Source: Acidovorax sp. DW039 (GTDB lineage: Bacteria > Pseudomonadota > Gammaproteobacteria > Burkholderiales > Burkholderiaceae_C). From it: a stretch of DNA of 64,000 bases. Of this stretch, positions 855 through 64,000 are shown piece by piece. The stretch is from assembly GCF_037101375.1 (NCBI RefSeq), contig NZ_AP029019.1, positions 3,441,001-3,505,000 of the forward strand. Reading direction: 5' to 3'. A model generated the notes under the pieces. The model worked only from the letters and a program-made list of their open reading frames with translations, did no database searches and was not told the origin of the DNA. Position 1 is the first letter of the stretch. Each line of letters starts with the position of its first letter. A program made the position numbers and the translations under genes.

Positions 855-2195
855 ATGCAAGCCGACCTGATCGCCACCCGCGCCCGTATCCAGCAGGGCC
901 AATTGACCGCCGCTGAAGTCATGGCTGAATGCGGGCATGCAGCCAGCACCCAAGCCTGCGCGCACGCCTTTGTCTCCTCCTGGTTCGACCAGGAACAGGA
1001 GCGACTCAGCCATACCATCCAGGATCATCTGCCATTGGCAGGGCTCCCCGTATCGATCAAGGATCTTTTCGACATTCAGGGGCAGAGCACCGCCGCCGGG
1101 TCCACTGCCCTGCAATCTGCACCCGCACTTGCGGACGCCCCCGCCGTGGCAAGGCTGCGCGCCGCGGGAGCCAGCATTGTGGGGCGCACGCACATGGTGG
1201 AGTTCGCTTTTTCCGGCGTGGGCATCAACCCGCATTTCGATACACCTGCTGCATACGATTACCGTTTTGGCTCGATAGCGGGCCCCGCCCGCGTTCCAGG
1301 AGGCTCCTCCTCGGGGGCCGCAGTGTCGGTGGCGAGCGGCGCATGCTTCGCCGCTTTGGGGTCCGACACAGGCGGGTCCATCCGTATCCCCGCAGCTTTC
1401 AATGGCATTGTTGGCTTCAAGAGCACTGCGCGTCTGGTGCCCACAGACGGAGCTGTGCCTTTGTCCACTACGCTGGACACAGCTTGCGCCATGACCCGCA
1501 GCGTACGTGACGCGATATGGGTACACGAGGTTCTGGCTGCCCGTCACGTCACCCGAAGCGCCGCTCCTCTGAGCCAATGGAAGCTGGCCGTGCCCACCAC
1601 CACGTTTCTGGAAGGGCTTGCCCCCGAAGTCCAGAACGCTTTTCAGCGCAGCCTCGACAAACTGGAGCAAGCAGGCGCACACATCGAAACCATCGACTTG
1701 CCTCAGTCAGCAGAGCTTGCCCCGATGCAGGCCAATGGCACACTGTCTGCGGCAGAAAGTTACGCATGGCATCGCCCTCTGCTGGAGCGTTCAAGAGACC
1801 TGTACGACCCACGGGTGCTCAGCCGCATCGAGCGAGGGGCCAGCATGAGCGCGGCAGACTACATCAGCCTGCTACAGGCCCGCAGGCAATGGATCGCCCG
1901 GATGGAAAAAGCAATCGCTCCCTACGATGCATTGCTCTCCCCCACCGTGCCCATTCTTGCCCCCCTGCTGGCCGACGTGGCACCTGGGCACGTGCGCGAC
2001 GAAGCGTTTTTCAAGGCAAATGCCCTGCTGCTACGCAACACCAGTGTGGTCAACATGCTGGATGGCTGCGCACTTTCGCTCCCATGCCATGAACAGGGTG
2101 AATTGCCTGTGGGGCTGATGGTGTGGCACGCAGCACTGCATGACGACGCCGTGCTCAACGTCAGTCTTCAAATCGAAAAAATACTACAAAAATAA
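855..2195 (+). CDS. Amidase signature family hydrolase
   Basis: A 446-residue amidase of the GatA/AtzF superfamily, hydrolysing an unknown amide. The Ser-cisSer-Lys triad is visible: Lys69 in SIKD, the GGSSSG loop at 149-154 supplying the cis-Ser, and the nucleophile Ser175 in DTGGS. It is too short and compositionally unlike a true GatA (about 485 residues), and no gatB or gatC lies nearby, so a tRNA amidotransferase role is unlikely. The C-terminal codons and stop run into a dispersed repeat that starts near 2182. A DadA-like oxidoreductase follows 57 bases downstream; together they could handle an amino amide, but that is inference. Confidence 0.85.
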   Translation: MQADLIATRARIQQGQLTAAEVMAECGHAASTQACAHAFVSSWFDQEQERLSHTIQDHLPLAGLPVSIKDLFDIQGQSTAAGSTALQSAPALADAPAVARLRAAGASIVGRTHMVEFAFSGVGINPHFDTPAAYDYRFGSIAGPARVPGGSSSGAAVSVASGACFAALGSDTGGSIRIPAAFNGIVGFKSTARLVPTDGAVPLSTTLDTACAMTRSVRDAIWVHEVLAARHVTRSAAPLSQWKLAVPTTTFLEGLAPEVQNAFQRSLDKLEQAGAHIETIDLPQSAELAPMQANGTLSAAESYAWHRPLLERSRDLYDPRVLSRIERGASMSAADYISLLQARRQWIARMEKAIAPYDALLSPTVPILAPLLADVAPGHVRDEAFFKANALLLRNTSVVNMLDGCALSLPCHEQGELPVGLMVWHAALHDDAVLNVSLQIEKILQK

Positions 2196-2242
2196 TAGCT
2201 GCCTGCGCTTTAAAATCAAGCGTAAGAGCACTTTTTTTGCAC
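2182..2242 (+). repeat. Dispersed palindromic repeat, copy 1
   Basis: Member of a family of roughly 50-60 bp repeats found about nine times in this window. The core reads ATAGCTGCCTGCGCTT, a short spacer, then an AAGCG arm and a T-run. The outer arms are complementary, so it can fold as a hairpin. The stop codon of the amidase lies inside it. Confidence 0.7.
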
Positions 2243-8585: not shown

Positions 8586-11294
8586 TTACTTGCGAAGCAA
8601 AACTTTCAGAACGTTCTGCAGTCGGCGTGCGCTGGATGCATCGCTAGCAGCAGCAAGCACCGCTGCCGTGTCTTCCGCCCAGGTCTGGGCTGGCGCAGGA
8701 TCGTTACGACGCGTGAGCAGTTGCAGTTGCAACATGCGGCGGGCTGCAATGTGCTCAGCCGGGGTAGGGACCTCCGCCGCCATTTCCAGGCGCAGCAGCG
8801 CTTGCGCAGCATCTGCCTTGGGAGCTGCAGAAAGCGCCTGCGACCATGCAGAGCGAACCGACGCCGTGACCCGGCTCCCCAGTTCCTGGGCGGGCGGAAT
8901 CTGCGCTGCATCGCGCTTTTCCCACGCAGTCAGCAGCTGCGTCAGGGCCTCGCCATGGGCCTGTGCCGCCAGCTTCTTCAAGGCTTGCTGGGCATGCTCC
9001 ATGGCCTCGCGTTGCGCGCGGAAAGCAGCGTCACCCAGACGCGGGCCACGGTCCTCACGTTCAGGCCTGTCACCAAAACGGCCACCGCGATCACCAAAGC
9101 GACCTTCGCCACGCGCACCACGCTGGGCATCCCGATCACCAGGACGACCATCCCTGCGATCACCGGGGCGCACACCACGCACCCCTGCCGCGGGTGCCTC
9201 TTTCTTCATTCCAGGGCGATCATCCCCCCGCACGGCCACCACAGACTTCGCAGCAGGCTTGGCAGGTGCAGCCGGGGCCTCAGAGGGAGCCTCCGCAGGC
9301 GCTACATTTTCTGTAGCTTGCTGCGCTGAATCTGCGGGCGCTAGAGCATTTTTTTCCTCATTTGCATTGGCATCAGCCACAGCCTGCGCTGCCTGCGCCT
9401 GGCCACGCAGCGCAGCTTCCAGTGCCTGCATGGCGGCGCGTATCTGCTGTGCATCTCCTGCCGCGTTGGCAGCCTCCAAAGCCTTGGAAGCTTCCAGTAC
9501 CACGCGGTCGCGCGCGCTCAGTTCGGTAGCGGCGCGCTCACGATCTGCCGACTTGCGGTTAAATGCCTCGTCAATCGGCTTACGGAAAGCATCCCAGAGT
9601 TTTTGCTCCTGCTTGCGATCCATGGGCACTGCCTGGGCCTCGGCCTGCCAGCGCTGCTGCAAGGCCTTCACGGCATCAATACGCAGCATAGGTGCAGCGC
9701 CCAAGGCCGTGGCCTCTTCGATCATGGAATGACGGCGTGCAAGGCTCTCCTTCTGGGCGGCTTCCAGCGGAGCGGCAGCCGCAGCAATGGCCTGCTTCCA
9801 CAACGGTTGCAGTTCAGCAAACAGCTTTTCACCCACATGACCGCTTTCACGCCAGCGGTCGCCAAACTGGTACAAGGCGCGCTGAATACCCTTCCAGTCA
9901 CCAGACGCAGCATGCTGCTGCGCCCAAGCCTTGACCTCTTCAATCAGTGCAAGACGCTGGGCTTTGTGCTCTGCAGCCTCTGCCCGCACTTTTTCCAGCC
10001 AGGCCTCCACTACCTTGTGGGCCTGGTTGCAAGCTTCGTCAAATTTCTTCCACAGCGCATGGTTGGCAGCGCCGCCTTGGTCCGCCTGCTTCCACTGCTC
10101 GCGCAACTGGCGCAAGGTTTCCTGCATCTTGCGACCACCCAGCGCCTGGCCGTCGGGGCGCTGCAGCAGGGCCTCCGCCTTGGCAACGAGCTCTTCGCGC
10201 ACCTGGTCGGCGCTCCAGCGCTGCCAGCCTTCCAGTTCACCCGCAGCGACCAGTGCTGCGTGAACCTGCTGCTCCAGAGAACCATCGATATGACGGCCAT
10301 GCACCTTCAGCACCGCACGCAATGCCGATGCTGCCCCGGCGCTGGCCTTGCCATGACCTTCTGAGGTTTCCTTTTCCAGAACGGCCAGAGCTTCCTTCAC
10401 AGCGCTCACAGCCTTGTCGCGCACCTCGGGGGCCACCTTGGGTTTGGCAGCGCGAGCAGGCTTCTGAGCGGCACCTGTCTCCAGGGGAATACCCCGCGCC
10501 ACCCGCAACTCATCGGCCCAGACAGGGACAGGCGGCAAGGGAGCTGCAGCATCTTCGGCCGCTGCTACCGCCTGGGCCAGCGCGGGCTGAAATGCCTCCC
10601 AGACCACCAGCAGTTGTGCACGTGAGGAGTCGAGCAGGGAAGGAAAACGCGCCTCCACACTGACCCAGCTGGGATCGCTGGTCAGTTCCTGGGCCTGCTC
10701 TTGCCAGCGCCCGACATCCGCACGCAGCAACTCCAAGGCCGCCTGCGCATCTCGCCAAGACTTGGTGGACAGCACTTCAATGCGCTGAGCCAGCAGCACA
10801 GCCGCCTCGCGCTGCACCTGAACCCGGTGCTGCAGATCTTCGATGACCTTCACGCGCTCTGCAATTTGCACCTTGAGCAGCGACAGAGGCTCACGCGAAA
10901 GAGGAGCACCCGCTTTGGCCGCGTCACGCTGCCAAGCCAAGGCATCCGCAATATTGAGCTTGGAAGCAGCGAGCAGTGCCTGGGCCTTCTCCGCCCATTC
11001 CGCTGCAATGGCTTCCTGCCCCTTGGCACGCCGGATCTCATCCAGACGCTCGCGGATGGCACGGGCTGCGCCCTTGTCACGTCCGCTCAACTCCTTGAAA
11101 ACCTCCTGGAGCTGCTCAGGTGCGGGCTGGGTGGCCAGCCATTCACGGATGCGCGAAGCACGCTCTCCTGACGTGGCGGCAGAGAAAGCTCCGCCGGTCA
11201 AAGCATCCAGTGGATGCGGCTCTTGGGTTTTGGCCGGGGCCGGATTCACTTCAGGTGCTTCGGACATTTTGTTGCGAGAAAAAAAAGGAAACAT
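8586..11294 (-). CDS. DUF349 domain protein with RGG-like linker
   Basis: A 902-residue largely alpha-helical protein with several DUF349 modules (long Trp-containing helices, roughly residues 250-590) and an N-terminal helical region. Residues 640-700 form an Ala/Pro-rich linker. Residues about 690-740 are a basic GDR/RGG-type tract with repeated G-D-R units, often seen in RNA-binding linkers. A copy of the dispersed palindromic repeat (9299-9353) encodes residues about 648-666. The function of DUF349 proteins is unknown. It appears co-transcribed with ypeA. The first ATG lacks a clear ribosome binding site; a start at 11267 is possible. Confidence 0.85.
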   Translation of the reverse strand: MFPFFSRNKMSEAPEVNPAPAKTQEPHPLDALTGGAFSAATSGERASRIREWLATQPAPEQLQEVFKELSGRDKGAARAIRERLDEIRRAKGQEAIAAEWAEKAQALLAASKLNIADALAWQRDAAKAGAPLSREPLSLLKVQIAERVKVIEDLQHRVQVQREAAVLLAQRIEVLSTKSWRDAQAALELLRADVGRWQEQAQELTSDPSWVSVEARFPSLLDSSRAQLLVVWEAFQPALAQAVAAAEDAAAPLPPVPVWADELRVARGIPLETGAAQKPARAAKPKVAPEVRDKAVSAVKEALAVLEKETSEGHGKASAGAASALRAVLKVHGRHIDGSLEQQVHAALVAAGELEGWQRWSADQVREELVAKAEALLQRPDGQALGGRKMQETLRQLREQWKQADQGGAANHALWKKFDEACNQAHKVVEAWLEKVRAEAAEHKAQRLALIEEVKAWAQQHAASGDWKGIQRALYQFGDRWRESGHVGEKLFAELQPLWKQAIAAAAAPLEAAQKESLARRHSMIEEATALGAAPMLRIDAVKALQQRWQAEAQAVPMDRKQEQKLWDAFRKPIDEAFNRKSADRERAATELSARDRVVLEASKALEAANAAGDAQQIRAAMQALEAALRGQAQAAQAVADANANEEKNALAPADSAQQATENVAPAEAPSEAPAAPAKPAAKSVVAVRGDDRPGMKKEAPAAGVRGVRPGDRRDGRPGDRDAQRGARGEGRFGDRGGRFGDRPEREDRGPRLGDAAFRAQREAMEHAQQALKKLAAQAHGEALTQLLTAWEKRDAAQIPPAQELGSRVTASVRSAWSQALSAAPKADAAQALLRLEMAAEVPTPAEHIAARRMLQLQLLTRRNDPAPAQTWAEDTAAVLAAASDASSARRLQNVLKVLLRK
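9299..9353 (+). repeat. Dispersed palindromic repeat, copy 2 (inside a gene)
   Basis: Matches the family core: GTAGCTTGCTGCGCT, a short spacer, GGCGCTAGAGCA and a T7 run. It lies within the DUF349 reading frame on the opposite strand, in frame, encoding part of the low-complexity linker. It is more diverged than the intergenic copies. Confidence 0.6.
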
Positions 11295-15208: not shown

Positions 15209-15267
15209 CTCGCTATCGTTTCAATAGCACCTTGCGCTGGATTGACGGGCGCGATCAGGCATTTTCT
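15209..15267 (+). repeat. Dispersed palindromic repeat, copy 3
   Basis: CGCTATCGTTTCAATAGC, CTTGCGCTGGATTGA, GGGCGCGATCAGGCATTTT. It lies between the convergent nrdR and nucleotidase genes. Confidence 0.65.
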
Positions 15268-27392: not shown

Positions 27393-27456
27393 GCAAAAAG
27401 TGGCTCCAACGCTTGATGAATGAGCGCTGGCAGCTACCAAATCAATAGCAAAAATT
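27393..27456 (-). repeat. Dispersed palindromic repeat, copy 4
   Basis: Reverse-oriented copy: AACGCTTGATGAATGAGCGC followed by TGGCAGCTACC and ATCAATAGCAAAAA. It fills the gap between the convergent DUF4401 and yihY genes and touches the yihY stop codon. Confidence 0.65.
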
Positions 27457-36100: not shown

Positions 36101-36155
36101 AAAAATAGCCTGCAGGGCTTGTGAATCAAGCGCTGGCAGCTATGGTTTTTGATGG
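36101..36155 (-). repeat. Dispersed palindromic repeat, copy 6
   Basis: Reverse-oriented copy: AAAAATAGCCTGCAGGGCTT, spacer, CAAGCGCTGGCAGCTATGG and TTTTTGAT. It sits between xylB and the AraC gene inside the polyol cluster; a hairpin here could affect readthrough from mtlR to xylB. Confidence 0.65.
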
Positions 36156-43412: not shown

Positions 43413-43465
43413 CTATCAAAACAATAGCTACCTGCGCTTTATTGATAAGCGCTAGAAGCACATTT
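43413..43465 (+). repeat. Dispersed palindromic repeat, copy 7
   Basis: Best-preserved copy: CTATCAAAACAATAGC, TACCTGCGCTTTATTGAT, AAGCGCTAGAAGCACATTT. It lies in the 449-base gap between the divergent mtlE and thyA genes. The rest of that gap holds the mtl operator candidate and the thyA leader. Confidence 0.75.
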
Positions 43466-45881: not shown

Positions 45882-45935
45882 GCTATCAAATTGGTAGCTG
45901 CCACCGCTTTCCCATCAAGCGCCAGTGTCATTTTT
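45882..45935 (+). repeat. Dispersed palindromic repeat, copy 8
   Basis: GCTATCAAATTGGTAGCTGCC, ACCGCTTTCCCATCAAGCGC, then CAGTGTCATTTTT. In the 202-base gap between folA and the flavoprotein oxidase. Confidence 0.68.
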
Positions 45936-54921: not shown

Positions 54922-56337
54922 TCACAGGGAGTAGTACATGTCGTACTCGACAGGGTGCACTGCCATACGGAAGCGAGTCACCTCGGTCATCTTCAGATCG
55001 ATATAGGCGTCGATCATGCTGTCGGTGAAAACGCCGCCCTTGGTCAGGAACGCGCGGTCCTTGTCCAGATGTTCCAGCGCTTGGTCCAGGCTATGGCACA
55101 CGGTGGGCACCAGCTTGTCTTCTTCTGGAGGCAGGTGGTACAGGTCCTTCGTTGCAGCTTCGCCGGGATGGATCTTGTTTTCCACACCGTCCAGACCAGC
55201 CATCAGCAGAGCTGCGAAGCCCAGATAGGGGTTCATCAGTGGATCGGGGAAGCGAGCTTCCACACGACGGCCCTTGGGGTTGGCCACGTAAGGAATGCGG
55301 ATCGAAGCGGAGCGGTTCTTGGCAGAGTAAGCCAGCTTCACTGGAGCTTCGAAGTGAGGAACCAGACGCTTGTAGCTGTTAGTGCCAGGGTTGGTAATGG
55401 CGTTCAGCGCACGTGCGTGCTTGATGATGCCGCCGATGTAGTACAGGGCGTAGTCAGACAAGCCTGCGTAGCCGTCGCCTGCGAACAGGTTCTTGCCATC
55501 CTTCCAGACCGACTGGTGAACGTGCATGCCGGAGCCGTTATCACCGTGGTAAGGCTTGGGCATGAAGGTCGCTGTCTTGCCGTATGCGTTGGCCACGTTG
55601 TGGATGACATACTTTTGCAGGATGGTCCAGTCGGCGCGCTCCACCAGGGTGCTGAACTTGGTGCCGATTTCGTTCTGACCTGCGCCAGCCACTTCGTGGT
55701 GGAACACTTCGACAGGGATGCCCAGAGATTCGAGAATCAGGGACATCTCAGCGCGCATGTCTTGCGTGCTGTCGACCGGAGGGACAGGGAAGTAGCCGCC
55801 CTTGACGGTGGGACGGTGGCCACGGTTGCCGCCTTCGAGCTTGGCACCAGTGTTCCAAGGAGCTTCGTATTCTTCGATTTCGTAGAAAGTGCTGTTGGGC
55901 TCTGTGCTCCAGCGAACGCCGTCGAAGATGAAGAATTCTGGCTCAGGGCCGAAGTAGGCAGTGTCGCCCAGACCAGACGCCTTCAGGTAGGCTTCAGCGC
56001 GCTTGGCGATGGAGCGTGGGTCACGGTCATAAGCCTTGCCATCGCTGGGCTCGATCACATCGCAAGTCAGGATCAGCGTTGTTTCTTCAAAGAACGGATC
56101 GATGTTGGCAGTATTGGGATCGGGGATCAGCTGCATGTCCGAGGCTTCAATGCCCTTCCAGCCAGCGATCGAGGAGCCGTCAAATGCGTGGCCCGATACA
56201 AACTTGTCTTCGTCAAAGTGAGAGACTGGCACCGTGGTGTGCTGCTGCTTGCCACGGGTATCGGTGAAACGGAAATCAACGAACTTGACTTCGTTCTCCT
56301 TCACCATCTTCATCACGTCTGCAACGGTCTTGGCCAT
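54922..56337 (-). CDS. glnA: Glutamine synthetase type I
   Basis: A 471-residue GSI-beta enzyme making glutamine from glutamate and ammonia. Recognised from [58 protein letters not shown] and NRSASIRIP. The adenylylation segment [10 protein letters not shown] keeps the target Tyr, so control by GlnE is expected. The ATG has CCAGGAGAA upstream. Sigma54 and NtrC-type sites are in the upstream gap. Confidence 0.97.
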
Positions 56338-56387
56338 CAGGTTCTCCTGGATAAAGCGCTTGTTGAAAAAAGAGTTTGCAAAATAAA

Positions 56388-56404
56388 AGCAGTTTGCGTG
56401 CCAG
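56388..56404 (-). promoter_or_regulatory. Sigma54 promoter of glnA
   Basis: On the minus strand, CTGGCACG, four bases, then CTGCT: a perfect -24 element and a one-mismatch -12 (consensus TTGC), with correct spacing. It lies about 55 bases upstream of the glnA ATG. Confidence 0.75.
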
Positions 56405-56418
56405 CCAAGTGCGGTCTT

Positions 56419-56485
56419 GCACTATGAAGGAGCGCCCACTACGGCAGTTGAGCAGGATGCACGTTCAAAAGCACCAACACAGTGC
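56419..56485. promoter_or_regulatory. NtrC-type binding dyads upstream of glnA
   Basis: GCAC-N7-GTGC at 56471-56485 (GCACCAACACAGTGC) fits the NtrC consensus. A second site with one mismatch, GCAC-N7-GAGC, is at 56419-56433. Both lie upstream of the sigma54 promoter on the minus strand, at spacing suited to enhancer binding. Confidence 0.6.
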
Positions 56486-56508
56486 AAATAACGGTCAATA
56501 CCTTCAAA

Positions 56509-57330
56509 CTAGAGGTTGCGCACCAATTCCGGGCCAAGGTTTGCACCAAATTCGTGCAAACCTGTTTTCAGGGCCTGCCATGCAGCAGGCACCGACGACG
56601 CAGGCCCCTTGACGCCCAGTTCGATATGCCGCCCGTATTGTGGATGATCTACGCTGGGCAAACTGAACACCCGCACATCTGGGTGCGATTTTTCAATCTG
56701 CTCCATCAGAGGCGTCAGTGCCGCCTCCATGGCGCCGTACACCACCACTGACTGCTCGGTCTGTGGTGCACGATTGAAATGGACCGCATAGTGCTCTTCA
56801 AGCACCCATTCGATCATCGGCCAGGCCATGACCGGAAAACCTGGAACGAAATGCACACAGCCCCCGCCCGCACCATCGCAGCTGAAGCCGGGGATCTTGT
56901 TGTATGGGTTGGGAATGATGCGCGCCCCCTGCGGAAACATGCCCATGTTGAGGCGGTGCACGTTGTCAGGTCGGTCTGGCTCATAGGGCACGCCCTGCTC
57001 CCTTGCCACATCCTGCATCCGTTCGCGGATCAGGACCTCAGCCTCAGGGTGCAGGGCGAGTTCACGTCCCAGAGCACGTCCAGCACATTGACGGGTGTGA
57101 TCGTCGGGTGTCGCGCCAATACCGCCGCAGGAAAACACCACATCTGCCGATGCAAATGCGCGCGCCAGCGTGGCGGTGATCCGATCAGGACTATCGCCTA
57201 CGTAGTCAGCGTAGGCCAATGACAGGCCCCGCGCTGCCAGAAGCTCAATCACCTTGGGCATGTGCTTGTCGGCCCGCTTCCCCGACAGAATCTCGTCGCC
57301 CACGATGATGAGACCGAAAGTGGGGGTCAT
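56509..57330 (-). CDS. CinA N-terminal/MoCF-fold protein
   Basis: A 273-residue molybdopterin-binding-fold protein related to the N-terminal half of CinA. GLIIVGDEILSGKRADKHMPKVIELLAARGL and SCGGIGATPDDHT are present; the deamidase half is absent. Members lacking that half are annotated as competence/damage-inducible or ADP-ribose pyrophosphatase-like proteins. Translationally coupled to the next gene upstream (four-base overlap). Confidence 0.82.
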   Translation of the reverse strand: MTPTFGLIIVGDEILSGKRADKHMPKVIELLAARGLSLAYADYVGDSPDRITATLARAFASADVVFSCGGIGATPDDHTRQCAGRALGRELALHPEAEVLIRERMQDVAREQGVPYEPDRPDNVHRLNMGMFPQGARIIPNPYNKIPGFSCDGAGGGCVHFVPGFPVMAWPMIEWVLEEHYAVHFNRAPQTEQSVVVYGAMEAALTPLMEQIEKSHPDVRVFSLPSVDHPQYGRHIELGVKGPASSVPAAWQALKTGLHEFGANLGPELVRNL

Positions 57331-58268
57331 GGTGAATTTTCTCCTGATTGCGAAGTTGTGGAAGACGGGTGCACCGGCCTTGGGGACACTGACGTGTTCG
57401 CGTCTTGGATTCCTGAGGGGGGCGGAAACGGTTCGGCCATCGGCGCGATGTCATTCATCCGCACATTGGTAGTTTGCTCGTTTCGCAAACGTTGCAGGGC
57501 AGCCAGACCATAGTGCGTGAACCACAGCGAAGAGAACGCGAAAACCAGGGTATAAATCCAGATAGCCAGCGGCACCAACACAAAGAATGCGGCTGCGAAT
57601 ACCACGCCTGACGCCCATACGATGCTAGGCGCTGCACCCAGGTAGCCTGTGATGACGCCTATGCCCAGAAGGCTGCTGCGATGGCGACGGAATATCTCCG
57701 CGCGCTCCTCCTTGCTCGCATGTTCGGCCAGCGCATCAAACACCATCACGCGATAAGTCAGCCAACCCCAGATCAAGGGAGGCAGAATGAGTACCAACGG
57801 AGGCACCAGCCAGAGCGGAACCGAGACCAACAGTGCCACTAGCGCCAACACGGTAGACCCCACCGACCAAGCGACACTGGCGACGAAAGATCCGCCTTTT
57901 TTACGCTCCAGATCAGGAAAGCGCCGAGCGGCCACCAAGGTCACAAGAGCGGGAGTCATCAGTACCGCCACAGCCAGCAGTGACACAACCACCAGCACCG
58001 GAATCACCAAGAGTACCACCATCAGCGGCGCCATCACAGCATTGAGGTCTCCGAAGCCCCAACCCTGGAGCCAACTCCACACACTGGTCAACAGTGTGGA
58101 GGCATCCAGCAAAGTCCGCATTGCCTGTACGGCAGCGTCCCAGTAGAAGTAGCCGAAAAGCAGCGCCAGACCAGCCATCAATAACAATGGCAGTAGCGAC
58201 AACGCAATCACACGCGGGCGCAGGCAATAGGTGGCGGCACGCCAGAAGGAATCGAACAGTAATCCCAT
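57327..58268 (-). CDS. EI24-domain membrane protein
   Basis: A 313-residue protein with about six hydrophobic segments in residues 20-245. The pattern (SFWRAATYCLRPRVIALSLLPLLL, a wide PLWLVPPLVLILPPLIWGWLTYR region, and a final FSSLWFTHYG) fits the EI24/CysZ-like family. The C-terminal 50 residues are polar and Pro-rich. Its stop overlaps the CinA-like start by four bases. Transport role is possible but unproven. Confidence 0.78.
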   Translation of the reverse strand: MGLLFDSFWRAATYCLRPRVIALSLLPLLLMAGLALLFGYFYWDAAVQAMRTLLDASTLLTSVWSWLQGWGFGDLNAVMAPLMVVLLVIPVLVVVSLLAVAVLMTPALVTLVAARRFPDLERKKGGSFVASVAWSVGSTVLALVALLVSVPLWLVPPLVLILPPLIWGWLTYRVMVFDALAEHASKEERAEIFRRHRSSLLGIGVITGYLGAAPSIVWASGVVFAAAFFVLVPLAIWIYTLVFAFSSLWFTHYGLAALQRLRNEQTTNVRMNDIAPMAEPFPPPSGIQDANTSVSPRPVHPSSTTSQSGENSP

Positions 58269-58303
58269 GGGGGCAAGCATACAGGCAGTGCCCACCCACT
58301 GAC

Positions 58304-59317
58304 TCAGGCCTTGCCCACCAACCGCAGAACCCCACGCCACTGCTGCGACCAGAACCCCGCCCCGTAGTCACGCACGCGGCCATCTGGGCCAGGTTCAACC
58401 TGATCGCGAACACCGGTGGGGTCAAAGCGCTTTTCAAAGTTGGCCGTACCCATCAGCATGTCCCACCAAGGCAGAAGCACCCCAAAATTGTGACCACCGA
58501 GCACCACACGGGGCTGCGAGGCGGGTGTGCCCCCTTGAGCATTGGTAGATGGTTTGACCGTCTCATGCCCGATGCCGATGCTGTGGTGTCGGCGATGAAA
58601 CCGGGGGCTGATCCACAGCCGCTCACCGATGTGACCAAACCACAGGCGCACATTGGCATGCTGAAAGCTCTCGCTGAGCTGGGTAATGGCCACGATGGCA
58701 ATGAACTGCCCAGGCGCAACACCAATCAACTGCGCCACCGTCACCAGAATCACATCCCGCAGCAAATCATCGAGCAGGTGATTGCGGTTGTCGCTCCACA
58801 TCGTCATTTGACGTTGGGCGTGATGCAACGAATGCAGGCGCCACCACCACTCGAAGTGGTGCTGCCCTCGATGGATCCAATAGTCCACGAAATCAAACAC
58901 CAGCAGGTACAGCAGCAAGCTGACCCAGGAGATGTCCGTCACTCCAGGCCAGATGCCATCCAGCTGAAAGGTGCTGACTCCCGCGACACGCAAGGCTCCA
59001 AAGAACGAGTCCGCCAGCGGATCGACAGTGAAAAACAGGGCCAACCGGAACAAGCCCAGACGGTGTATCAAGGTGTAGAGAATGTCTGTACGGATGGTGG
59101 CGCGGTCGTTGACCTGCTCCACGGGCCACCAACGCTGCATAGGCCCAATAACAGCCACGATGACCACCAGTTGCAACAACCCGACCAACAGCCATCCAGC
59201 GGCCTCGTAGCCGTTTTCGAGCAGGCTTGCCAAGCCTGTGGTGAACATCAGTGGCTGCAGCACGCTTTCAAAAAGCCATTGCTGCACGCTGTCAAATACG
59301 CTGCTCAGCCATCCCAT
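58304..59317 (-). CDS. Fatty acid hydroxylase / sterol desaturase family protein
   Basis: A 337-residue integral membrane di-iron oxygenase. Three histidine clusters supply metal ligands: HRGQHH, HSLHHAQ and HRRHHS. Several transmembrane helices precede and flank them. Substrate (fatty acid, sterol or hopanoid) is not inferable. The stop lies 35 bases before the EI24 start. Confidence 0.87.
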   Translation of the reverse strand: MGWLSSVFDSVQQWLFESVLQPLMFTTGLASLLENGYEAAGWLLVGLLQLVVIVAVIGPMQRWWPVEQVNDRATIRTDILYTLIHRLGLFRLALFFTVDPLADSFFGALRVAGVSTFQLDGIWPGVTDISWVSLLLYLLVFDFVDYWIHRGQHHFEWWWRLHSLHHAQRQMTMWSDNRNHLLDDLLRDVILVTVAQLIGVAPGQFIAIVAITQLSESFQHANVRLWFGHIGERLWISPRFHRRHHSIGIGHETVKPSTNAQGGTPASQPRVVLGGHNFGVLLPWWDMLMGTANFEKRFDPTGVRDQVEPGPDGRVRDYGAGFWSQQWRGVLRLVGKA

Positions 59318-59416
59318 CGTCTTGCACTCCCGACACCCCAGTTATTCATCAAACCAAATAGGCGGCTAGGCCAAGCCAGTGCACTTGCATCTTTATCACC
59401 AGCTCTGCCTGACAAA

Positions 59417-60238
59417 CTAGCGAGCCTGCGCCGCCAAAGCCGCATAGTCTGGGTGATCCCGCAAGGTGCGAAAGCAAAAGCCCTTTTGCTTGAGCCCTTC
59501 GATCAAAGGCTCCAGCACGGCGGGTGCCCAAGCGTCCTTGCGTGACCAGATACCCAAATGGGCCAGCAAGATGTCTCCGCTGCGCACGTCGCGCAGCGCC
59601 TTGTTGAGCAGCATGGTGTTGCTGGCAGTTTCGCTCGGCAACTCATCTCCCAGAAAGCCCGCGGGAGACCAGCCGACATGCGCATAGCCGCAGGCCTTGG
59701 CGCTGGCAATCAGTTGCGCAGAGGTTTTGCCGCCAGGCGCACGGAACAGTGGCAAGGGTGCCTTGCCAGTGATGGCCTTCAAACGATCTGCTGCGTGGGT
59801 AATTTCTTCGCAATACTCGGCCGCAGAAATCACGAAGCTTTGGCCTTCACGCAGTCCTGCCGAGGGGCGAACCCGAAAAGTCGGGTGCTGCGCATCGCCA
59901 GCGTCTGATCGCCAATAGGTGTGATTCCATGTGTGGGAAGCAAACTCATGCCCCTCAGCAGCGCGCGCCCGCCACCAAGGTGCCCAGTAGTCTCCCAAAC
60001 TTCCATCCCCCTGCTTCGTGCGCTCATTCGCAGCAAAAAAGGTGACGCGTACCTGCTGGCGCTGGAGGATCTCTGCAACCAAAGGCGCAACCTCCATGTG
60101 GCCAGTGTCAAAGGTCAGGTACAGAGGTTTCTTACAGTCATTAGACGCACTGGCGCACGCTACATAAGCGCAAGCAGCTATCAATACAATAGCACATCGA
60201 CACCTTCCGCTTGCGGAGCCCATACTGCTGAATGGCAT
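59417..60238 (-). CDS. Secreted polysaccharide deacetylase
   Basis: A 273-residue NodB-fold esterase. The signal peptide h-region (AIVLIAACAYVACASAS, residues 16-32) is encoded by a copy of the dispersed palindromic repeat. The NodB core begins YLTFDTGH; the second Asp of the usual TFDDG is replaced by Thr. It continues GHEFASHTWNHTYWR with two metal His, LFRAPGGKT and ILLAHLG. It should remove acetyl groups from an envelope or external glycan. The start at 60238 has GGAG eight bases upstream. Preceded by a beta-propeller gene 26 bases away. Confidence 0.85.
   Translation of the reverse strand: MPFSSMGSASGRCRCAIVLIAACAYVACASASNDCKKPLYLTFDTGHMEVAPLVAEILQRQQVRVTFFAANERTKQGDGSLGDYWAPWWRARAAEGHEFASHTWNHTYWRSDAGDAQHPTFRVRPSAGLREGQSFVISAAEYCEEITHAADRLKAITGKAPLPLFRAPGGKTSAQLIASAKACGYAHVGWSPAGFLGDELPSETASNTMLLNKALRDVRSGDILLAHLGIWSRKDAWAPAVLEPLIEGLKQKGFCFRTLRDHPDYAALAAQAR
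60145..60193 (-). repeat. Dispersed palindromic repeat, copy 9 (encodes signal peptide)
   Basis: On the minus strand GCTATTGTATTGATAGC, TGCTTGCGCTTATGTAG and CGTGCGCCAGTGCGTC align base for base with the left half of the family. It lies wholly inside the deacetylase reading frame, in frame, giving residues 16-32. Confidence 0.68.
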
Positions 60239-60263
60239 ACAGCTCACTCCGGAAGTACTGTGC

Positions 60264-61250
60264 TTAACGTGGAGCGTGCTGCAGAGTCCAAACGCCATGG
60301 GGTGATTTCCCCACATTGACCTGGCGTACGACCTTCTTCGCCTGGGTGTCCACCACAGACAGTTTTCGAGCCCAGCGCGAGCTGACGTAGATGTAGCGCC
60401 CATCAGCCGACACATCCATGCAATCTGGTCCACCCGGTACGGGGTAGGACTCGACAACCTGTTGAGTCACCATGTCAATCTTGCTGATGGAGTTGGCTAC
60501 CCGGTTGCTCACATAAAGATGGCGCCCGTCTCCAGCGCCGCGAAAGGCATGCGCCCCATCGCCTGTCTTGATTTTCTTGATGCTGACTGCTTCGCGGCCG
60601 GAAACATCAAACACCTCTACGCTATCAGCACCCGTCAGCCCCACAAACAGATATTTGTCGTCGGGGCTGCCATACACGTCTGCAGGCATCGCCCCGGTTT
60701 TGACCCGCCATTTGATAGCCTGGGTTGCGATATCAATGGCCACCAGCTCATCGCTGTCCTGCATCGTGGAATAGACCGTGGCACTCCGGCTGTCGATCCA
60801 CAAATGACTAGGGGTACGTGAAGTGGCGACGCGCCGTACCAGCGTCAGGTCCTTACCATCCCAGCGATAAAAATCTACATGGTTCAATCGGTTGGCAGCC
60901 GTGACGAACCACTTCATGTCGGGGCTGAACCGAAGTTGGTAAGGGTCCACAATTCCACGCACCGTGCGTTGCACCTCGGCGGTACGAGGATCCACAAACG
61001 TCAGCGTATCCCCAAGTGCATTCGCCACGATGAGGGACTTTTCGTCTGGCGTTAGATACAGGTGATGCGGCTCTTTGCCAGTGGGAATTCGGGCGGTCTC
61101 GGTCCAGGTCGTCGGATCAATGACGCTGACATTGGCCTCCAACGAGTTAAGCACGAAAAGAGGTGGAGTTCCGGTCGCAACACTGGCAACGGAGTACCAC
61201 ACCCCGCCAAGGGCCACCACACAGGCACGAGCAATCGAGAGAATCTTCAC
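60264..61250 (-). CDS. YncE-like beta-propeller protein
   Basis: A 328-residue seven-bladed propeller of the YncE/40-residue-repeat type, with a signal peptide (ARACVVALGGVWYSVASVATG). Blade repeats of the form VSVIDPTTW and LYLTPDEKSLIVAN recur roughly every 42 residues. Start is GTG at 61250. It is 26 bases upstream of the deacetylase gene on the same strand and almost surely co-transcribed; both products are predicted to be exported. Ligand unknown. Confidence 0.83.
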   Translation of the reverse strand: MKILSIARACVVALGGVWYSVASVATGTPPLFVLNSLEANVSVIDPTTWTETARIPTGKEPHHLYLTPDEKSLIVANALGDTLTFVDPRTAEVQRTVRGIVDPYQLRFSPDMKWFVTAANRLNHVDFYRWDGKDLTLVRRVATSRTPSHLWIDSRSATVYSTMQDSDELVAIDIATQAIKWRVKTGAMPADVYGSPDDKYLFVGLTGADSVEVFDVSGREAVSIKKIKTGDGAHAFRGAGDGRHLYVSNRVANSISKIDMVTQQVVESYPVPGGPDCMDVSADGRYIYVSSRWARKLSVVDTQAKKVVRQVNVGKSPHGVWTLQHAPR

Positions 61251-61408
61251 AAAACCACTTTCAACACAGCCTTAGAGTGTAGCGCTGCACTTCCACCGAT
61301 CCCGAACGTCCCCACGTAACATGATGGTGTTTTGGCAAACATTGATCAGGGTCATGCCTGCACTGAGATTGCCAAGACGCGCCGCAAACCAGCCCTTTGC
61401 GTGGAGGT

Positions 61409-62161
61409 TCACACGTTACTATTCAACAGATTCAGCTCAGCCGCATTCAGCCACCGCCATTGGCCGGGAGCCAGATCTGCCGGCAACTCCATCCCTCCAA
61501 TACGCGAGCGGTGCAATCCTTCCACTCGGTTTCCTACCGCTGCAATCATCCGTTTGACTTGGTGGTACTTGCCTTCGGTCAGCGTCATATCCAACCGGTG
61601 GGAGTCCGCCACGATGCAATTCGCAGCACGCACTGGTTTGGGATCATCATCCAGCACCACCCCCGCCAACAATCTCGAAACTTGAATCTCGTCCACAGGA
61701 TGTTTGGTTGTTACTTGATAGACCTTCGGTACATGCTTTTTGGGCGAACTGAGGCGATGGATAAACTGACCATCATCACTCAGCAAAAGCATACCGGTGG
61801 TGTCTTGATCCAGACGGCCTACAGCCTGCACTCCTTGCACAGCACTCTTTGTAGGCCTCTGGCGCAATGGTGAAGGCAGCAATGTGTAGATACTAGGATA
61901 GGTGGACGGCTTTTGAGAACATTCCGTACCTGCAGGCTTGTGAAGGAGCACGTAGGCTTTGGCATGGAAGGGCCAATCCACCCCCTGCACGCGAAGCAAA
62001 AGGCCCTCAGGCTCAAATTCAGCGCTTGCATCAGTGCATAGCGCATATTCAACGGTGGGTGAAGGTGAATCACTCACCAAAACCCATCCCTGCTGAATCA
62101 GCCCCGCACACACGCGGCGCGTACCAAATCCCTGGGAATACAGAATATCTTGCAGTTGCAT
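61409..62161 (-). CDS. rsuA: 16S rRNA pseudouridine(516) synthase
   Basis: A 250-residue RsuA/RluE family enzyme. S4-like start QDILYSQGFGTRRVCAGLIQQGWV, then the catalytic Asp in VGRLDQDTTGMLLLSDDG, then KVYQVTT and LTEGKYHQVKRMIAAVGNRVEGLHR. RsuA modifies 16S U516; assignment to a particular uridine is by family. The ATG at 62161 fits family N-termini better than 62185. Confidence 0.88.
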   Translation of the reverse strand: MQLQDILYSQGFGTRRVCAGLIQQGWVLVSDSPSPTVEYALCTDASAEFEPEGLLLRVQGVDWPFHAKAYVLLHKPAGTECSQKPSTYPSIYTLLPSPLRQRPTKSAVQGVQAVGRLDQDTTGMLLLSDDGQFIHRLSSPKKHVPKVYQVTTKHPVDEIQVSRLLAGVVLDDDPKPVRAANCIVADSHRLDMTLTEGKYHQVKRMIAAVGNRVEGLHRSRIGGMELPADLAPGQWRWLNAAELNLLNSNV

Positions 62162-62276
62162 GATCGGTTGTATTGGCTGAAGCACAGAGCCGCGCCAGCT
62201 GTTTACTCATTGTCCCCGCTGAATTCCAAGGTACAAGCCGACGACAAGAGTATGCATGGGCGAATCGCCAAAAAGC

Positions 62277-62308
62277 AAAAAACCCCAGTCTGAGTAGACT
62301 GGGGTTTT
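62277..62308 (-). terminator. Terminator of the rRNA operon
   Basis: AAAACCCCAGTCT, loop ACTC, AGACTGGGGTTTTTT on the minus strand, just beyond the 5S gene. Perfect stem with T-run. Confidence 0.93.
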
Positions 62309-62320
62309 CTGGGCTGTAAG

Positions 62321-62436
62321 AGCCTGACGATGACCTACTTTCACACGGGAACCCGCACTATCATCGGCGCAAAGTCGTTTCACTGTCCTGTTCGGGATGG
62401 GAAGGAGTGGTACCAACTTGCTATGGTCATCAGGCA
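62321..62436 (-). rRNA. rrf: 5S ribosomal RNA
   Basis: On the minus strand it starts TGCCTGATGACCATAGC, contains CCCATCCCGAACAGGACAGTGAAAC-type core and ends GTAGGTCATCGTCAGGC, closing helix I. About 116 nt. It lies after 23S in the same operon, as usual. Confidence 0.95.
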
Positions 62437-62575
62437 TAACTTGGTGCTGAGCAGTCTTGGGACTGCTCGGCGAATTCATAGAGTTTGGAATCAGTTTTTT
62501 GTATTTGACTGCGTCTAACTTGGCATAACAATCTTTGAGCTTTTGCATTGAAGTGCATAGGCTATCAAAGTTATA

Positions 62576-64000
<1,425 letters not shown>

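Follow-up and report, generated by a model that had tools for sequence, protein, structure and literature searches.

A dispersed palindromic motif encodes the predicted signal-peptide core of a polysaccharide deacetylase in Acidovorax

Results

The deacetylase gene and its predicted signal peptide

We analysed a stretch of 64,000 nucleotides (hereafter the window), bases 3441001-3505000 of contig 1 of the two-contig, 5.22-Mb genome of Acidovorax sp. DW039. A polysaccharide deacetylase gene lies on its minus strand, downstream of a gene for a YncE-like propeller (PF21783), and its 5' part carries a copy of a dispersed repeat:

59417..60238, minus strand: polysaccharide deacetylase, 273 aa (ORF and translation; PF01522, E 3.8e-21)
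60146..60238, minus strand: predicted signal peptide, residues 1-31 (hydropathy and charge)
60148..60194, minus strand: repeat copy, model positions 2-48 of 56 (nhmmer E 1.9e-9)
60247..60250, minus strand: GGAG, likely ribosome-binding site (judged from the sequence)

The predicted start of the deacetylase is the ATG at 60238; L031 and L032 have an ATG at the matching place. Its first 31 residues, MPFSSMGSASGRCRCAIVLIAACAYVACASA, resemble a Sec signal in layout, with a basic n-region, a predicted hydrophobic h-region (CAIVLIAACA, Kyte-Doolittle mean 2.92) and small residues at -3 and -1. Cleavage is likely after A-S-A (residues 29-31), and many orthologues have an AxA-Q ending at the homologous place. 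By the lipobox rule, the stretch L-I-A-A-C is lipobox-like. A lipoprotein was nevertheless set aside: that Cys codon varies among orthologues, and only a very short hydrophobic run would precede it. By tree path, the deacetylase lies nearest to those of an Acidovorax MAG, Acidovorax benzenivorans and A. delafieldii. The deacetylase of L051, a record titled Pantoea sp. 18069, groups inside Comamonadaceae, and that assembly is likely misnamed or mixed.

A first-pass annotation had placed a repeat copy inside the deacetylase frame, at 60145-60193, and described the rest of the signal as basic. Both observations hold: the copy is found at 60148-60194 with a model iterated from own-genome copies, the deacetylase copy included (the E-value of 1.9e-9 above), and, in a small search whose model excluded this copy, at E 1.5e-11; the net charge ahead of it is +2. 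Its 17-nt core is matched exactly. Counted from the ATG, A16 begins at 60193, and the last base of A31 is 60146. The repeat was also said to encode exactly the hydrophobic core and the cleavage region; it does encode the whole predicted core, but only most of the cleavage region.

At higher coordinates, also on the minus strand, lie a 5S rRNA gene (62322-62434) and part of a 23S rRNA gene (62575-64000). Over positions 55000-64000 of the window, no Rfam family other than 5S and LSU rRNA reached its gathering score, and the repeat was dropped as a candidate Rfam RNA.

A repeat family of hundreds of copies

The dispersed repeat family is real: its 17-nt core, allowing at most two mismatches, occurs 258 times in the genome and the reversed pattern not once. 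A first profile, built from 29 seed copies (deacetylase copy left out) with one iteration on the first 824 kb, retrieved 184 copies at E<1e-3 from a genome sample of 1.624 Mb and none from the reversed sequence. This sample comprised the window and 78 pieces of 20 kb each, three from contig 2 and 75 from contig 1, the latter with few exceptions at even intervals. By either count the copies number in the hundreds, far above chance, as with a DNA uptake sequence. A second profile of 56 positions, made from 109 copies with window positions 60001-60300 left out, has the consensus ttgCTatttatTtgATAGCTgCttgCGCTtgttggataaGCGctagaggccatTTT; three of these training copies are the genome's own Sco1, HupE and L177 copies (see below), and the motif model and the choice of orthologues both derive from this one genome. 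The 60 kb sampled from contig 2 (L186-L188) held no copy, where about 7 would be expected at the density of contig 1. Contig 2 may be a plasmid that came from a source beyond the range of the motif.

Within the window, nine rows have E<1, and for eight of these the value is below 1e-5. In the list of further copies, the label "intergenic" comes from a home-made gene finder that shortened genes, the deacetylase included, and gives rough context only:

2184..2236, plus strand: copy (E 5.8e-8)
9301..9353, plus strand: copy within a coding-like ORF that reads it antisense (E 2.7e-6)
15211..15264, plus strand: copy (E 4.8e-6)
27396..27451, minus strand: copy judged intergenic, the window's best match (E 1.1e-11)
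36102..36143, minus strand: copy judged intergenic (E 5.5e-9)
43413..43465, plus strand: copy judged intergenic (E 9.8e-10)
45882..45935, plus strand: noncoding copy just 3' of a gene (E 9.7e-8)

The last of these is present at the same place in 9 of the 11 Acidovorax relatives alignable there (of 15 searched); this copy outside genes has therefore stayed put too. At this locus, the only one examined for an empty site, no clean one was seen: the two motif-less relatives carry unrelated sequence.

The predicted fold of the consensus has two hairpins (z -1.9). Drift in the right arm of the deacetylase copy has left it folding no better than shuffled sequence (z +0.6). Among 22 arm pairs followed through up to 174 copies, none covaries after correction (lowest uncorrected p 0.024). 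Their pairing follows from the near-invariance of each arm, which points to a constraint on sequence, not on structure. An orientation bias between replichores, first suggested among the copies listed, was abandoned, as the even sample has both orientations on both sides. In two genomes of genus group g32, the listed cores are most commonly the variant TTGATAGCTGCTTAGGC (7 of 13 in G239, 5 of 12 in G031), possibly a dialect of the motif.

The frame used in the deacetylase takes its codons from model position 3 and is stop-free in 98 of 158 nearly complete copies. Of these 98, 68% reach a Kyte-Doolittle value of at least 1.6 over 10 aa, against 0-20% for the other frames and 7.8% for random stop-free genomic 54-mers at the same cut. 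A typical open copy reads A-I-x-L-I-A-A-C-A-Y-P-S-S-A-x-G.

The repeat in deacetylase orthologues

As orthologues we took the best 80 of 259 related loci in named genomes. The deacetylase copy is neither unique nor of recent date: in 38 of these orthologues the repeat profile matches the signal region in sense orientation at E<0.01 (E<1e-5 in 24), with an identical codon frame in every case. The register to the mature protein is that of the window's copy in 32; in the other six the repeat is shifted upstream by whole codons (by 7 to 10 in L064, L071, L080, L090 and L109, by 3 in L047).

A signal copy is present in 38 of the 49 genomes with at least 10 core copies and in none of the 31 with fewer (Fisher 4e-13, kinship ignored), the cut of 10 being our own choice and one that would undercount lineages with a different motif dialect. 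The remaining 11 high-copy genomes have no signal copy at E<0.01. On a tree of 81 mature proteins, the character changes state 12 times, compared with 27.3 in shuffles, and its association with genome copy number is not significant on this tree because there is only one supported independent pair.

The other 42 orthologues have mostly signal-like N-termini, as judged by eye, many of them GC-rich; a signal therefore does not require the repeat. The first-pass annotation would have been contradicted by the same sequence in orthologues from repeat-poor genomes. At E<0.01 this is not what we find, since those orthologues are without the repeat (0 of 31). Below this threshold, weak in-frame sense matches in four low-copy genomes (L076, E 0.013; L095, 0.017; L049, 0.12; L083, 1.2) may be relics; two further weak low-copy matches, L068 and L094, are out of frame or antisense.

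Probable constraint at the DNA level

Codon usage was compared in 31 in-register repeat-type deacetylases, and because these rows were chosen for their motif matches the contrast is inflated: amino acids agree in 47% of pairs at the signal codons and in 74% in the mature part, while the codon is identical in 66% and 49% of the agreeing pairs, respectively; Ala codon identity is 64% in the signal vs 37.5% in the mature part, and, of the Ile codons, ATA accounts for 31 of 59 in the signal vs 9 of 191 in the mature part. In the unselected orthologues, third-position conservation correlates with motif information at rho 0.73 across the 49 high-copy and 0.49 across the 31 low-copy genomes, and the mean third-position match to the motif consensus is 0.46 vs 0.21. 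This unselected test takes the place of a third-position rank correlation of 0.92, discarded as inflated because its orthologues had been picked for motif matches.

Other proteins with repeat-encoded predicted signals

In the sample of the own genome, the same frame forms the predicted signals of a SCO1/SenC protein (PF02630), a HupE/UreJ protein (PF04955) and an unnamed protein, L177:3697-4422, which matches no Pfam family above cut-off and is cupredoxin-like by eye. Relatives of Sco1 and HupE were sought in 30 chosen genomes of the 80. The repeat is carried by 23 of 30 Sco1 relatives (23 of 27 in high-copy, 0 of 3 in low-copy genomes) and by 14 of 25 HupE relatives (14 of 23 and 0 of 2; best match per genome, five genomes unmatched), leaving 4 of 27 and 9 of 23 high-copy genomes without a signal copy. 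It is likewise found in 10 of 13 L177 relatives (the closest 13 of 30 loci returned), one of which, L273, has a stop codon within its match. The codon frame is the same in all 23 Sco1, 14 HupE and 10 L177 matches. The likely cleavage point, at a probable AxA site, falls after model position 50 in the in-register deacetylases, HupE and L177; in Sco1 the last part of the repeat, in many cases GGCCTTTTT, continues into the lipobox. For all four families, Sec export by the repeat-encoded peptides is predicted only.

Three other proteins have repeat-encoded N-terminal parts. In the amidohydrolase-like L115:1011-1958 (PF04909), the hydrophobic part of the predicted signal is the repeat in an antisense frame. 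The CysN-like L131:6109-7479 and the Era-like GTPase L140:16889-17926 (names by eye) have short repeat-encoded N-terminal extensions that are not signal-like.

Among plasmids, 1750 records match the motif, most of them enterobacterial; of the 25 matches listed, 19 fall under a DUF1010 gene. In the E. coli plasmid NZ_MZ513635.1, a copy (L295:594-639, E 7.6e-13) lies antisense in a DUF1010 ORF between dfrA12 and aadA2, a cassette which we take to be gcuF. This integron-cassette gene may derive from a Comamonadaceae chromosome. DUF1010 (PF06231) overlaps the motif at both places examined, L295:452-742 (minus strand) and L298:1544-1588, the own-genome DUF1010 match being below Pfam's cut-off; part of the family may therefore be an antisense reading of the repeat.

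Overwriting versus insertion

Insertion of a repeat into a gene would add 17-18 residues. We compared six interior coding copies with solved homologues of their proteins, which we take to be PurK, RlmI, Gph, RfbD, TruB and DapF. Against the best homologue, PurK, RlmI and Gph have no extra residues at the repeat (Gph has one just after), RfbD has 2 and TruB 4; DapF has 10 in three gaps, partly before the repeat. The second-best homologues give similar figures (11 for DapF, small gaps for RlmI), except that Gph then has 15 additional residues within and around the repeat.

For the signals, two pairs of sequences were compared. Sco1 L202, with no match, and L203 (E 2.5e-5) align without gaps, and 9 of 22 signal codons differ between them, 8 silently. 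The deacetylase of L050, also without a match, is collinear with its sister L053; 14 of 18 codons differ, 8 silently. In each pair the motif may have been gained in one member or lost in the other. The collinearity and the interior copies, rather than any dated series, make overwriting of signal codons by substitution likely.

Discussion

We favour, with moderate confidence, a history in which a dispersed motif of ~50 nt, now encoding the core of the deacetylase signal, was written by substitution over the codons of an older signal. Such a motif would be maintained by selection or transmission bias acting on the DNA sequence as such, as a binding site or through an uptake-sequence-like drive, because its silent positions are more conserved than those of the mature gene and its arms do not covary. 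Signal peptides would be a favoured landing place, since they tolerate many hydrophobic sequences and one frame of the motif is a near-complete signal; changes near the motif end would then give Ala at -3 and -1. A bolder version, which we put forward tentatively and think doubtful as it stands, is that Acidovorax and related Comamonadaceae possess an unrecognised ~50-nt uptake-sequence-like drive motif that rewrote the export signals of at least four families, and that serves both DNA-level transmission and secretion.

The repeat could instead have been inserted long ago, once per gene in an ancestor of the bacterial family, then inherited and eroded in repeat-poor lineages. This would account for a region fixed across genera, for the clustering on the tree, for the weak partial matches in low-copy genomes, and for Gph and DapF being longer than some homologues around the repeat. 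It accords poorly with silent sites that retain the motif in a gene whose mature part has lost most codon identity, and with interior copies that are mostly uninserted relative to the best homologue; we regard it as rather unlikely. Still harder to sustain is the proposal of the first-pass annotation, that a mobile sequence recently inserted itself and thereby created the enzyme's secretion. The repeat is indeed dispersed in hundreds of copies, and the deacetylase copy matches the core exactly. However, repeat-less orthologues mostly keep signal-like N-termini (by eye), the repeat occupies the same signal region in other genera, interior coding copies overlie existing residues with no repeat length added relative to the best homologue, and one intergenic copy is likewise fixed in position; moreover, the two Y1 transposase genes have no copy at E<1e-3 in either ~3.3-kb locus, and the contig 2 sample has none at all. 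We consider this improbable. The data fit a motif that is tolerated in signals and overlies them, rather than an export-creating mobile element. The earlier interpretation is partly supported: its observation is confirmed, its mobile origin of secretion is not supported.

Could the element act in RNA, as a transcription terminator or an mRNA element, its overlap with signal codons being coincidental? The consensus has a hairpin and a T-run, and between tandem genes 32 copies lie along transcription vs 13 against (first 824-kb sample, home-made gene finder). But the arms lack covariation, an internal terminator near codon 16 would presumably be harmful, and many copies lie inside coding-like sequence, so that this explanation is very improbable. 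As to chance, or convergence of proteins on a common kind of signal peptide, such peptides do contain much A, I and L, yet E-values reach 1e-12 and below, one frame is used throughout and repeat-poor genomes have no match at E<0.01; moreover, silent sites match the motif, and these sites already refute the idea. We give it hardly any credence.

The usual view of signal peptides is that they evolve rapidly and that their DNA is little constrained. Here a dispersed motif, one frame of which is a nearly ready-made signal, seems to dictate signal codons in several families across genera. This offers a concrete system for testing how DNA-level motifs shape proteins, and raises the question of whether Comamonadaceae have an overlooked sequence-specific DNA process, such as uptake or binding.

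Comparison with known systems

In the open literature searched, the letters of the core appear in neither orientation, and among the papers listed we recognised no description of the motif, of its role in signals, or of a Comamonadaceae uptake sequence. PMC2755013 was rejected as a precedent, "palindromic" referring to CRISPR in the accessible portion of that paper.

REP/REPIN sequences with their RAYT genes are, in the sections available of PMC3116915 and PMC3733652, similarly short, palindromic and present in hundreds of copies, many of them noncoding. The motif differs in that its arms do not covary (22 pairs). Neither L248 nor L249, the loci of the two PF01797 genes, holds a copy at E<1e-3, the best match being 0.0047 over 20 nt.

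Rickettsia palindromic elements (RPE), as presented in excerpts of PMC2229807, measure 105-146 bp and are found in intergenic DNA as well as, in frame, within conserved protein genes. Our motif is likewise dispersed, palindromic and found in both settings. It is shorter, with a model of 56 positions and a length of ~50 nt, and its six interior copies mostly overlie residues (0, 0, 0, 2, 4 and 10 extra against the best homologue; 15 for Gph against the second-best). The same partial text provides the nearest printed precedent: at Yersinia locus YPO1552, the repeat YPAL/RU-2 supplies part of the predicted signal in a putative exported protein of 144 aa, which was suggested to be a new protein. 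There, within that text, one protein is highlighted; here the repeat forms part of the predicted signals of four families, known ones among them, in one frame and across genera.

The motif also resembles DNA uptake sequences, for which the available passages report a proposed molecular drive (PMC1939737) and a preferred orientation with a gene-end bias (PMC2346458). Our motif, at most a candidate for such a role, is set apart by its ~50 nt and two inverted repeats. Like the uptake sequences of Neisseriaceae and Pasteurellaceae, as far as these two papers' accessible text describes them, it exists in hundreds of sequence-constrained copies, in noncoding DNA and in parts of coding DNA. It resembles them, too, in coding copies that are mostly without insertion against the best homologue and, in the variant core TTGATAGCTGCTTAGGC, in a possible dialect.
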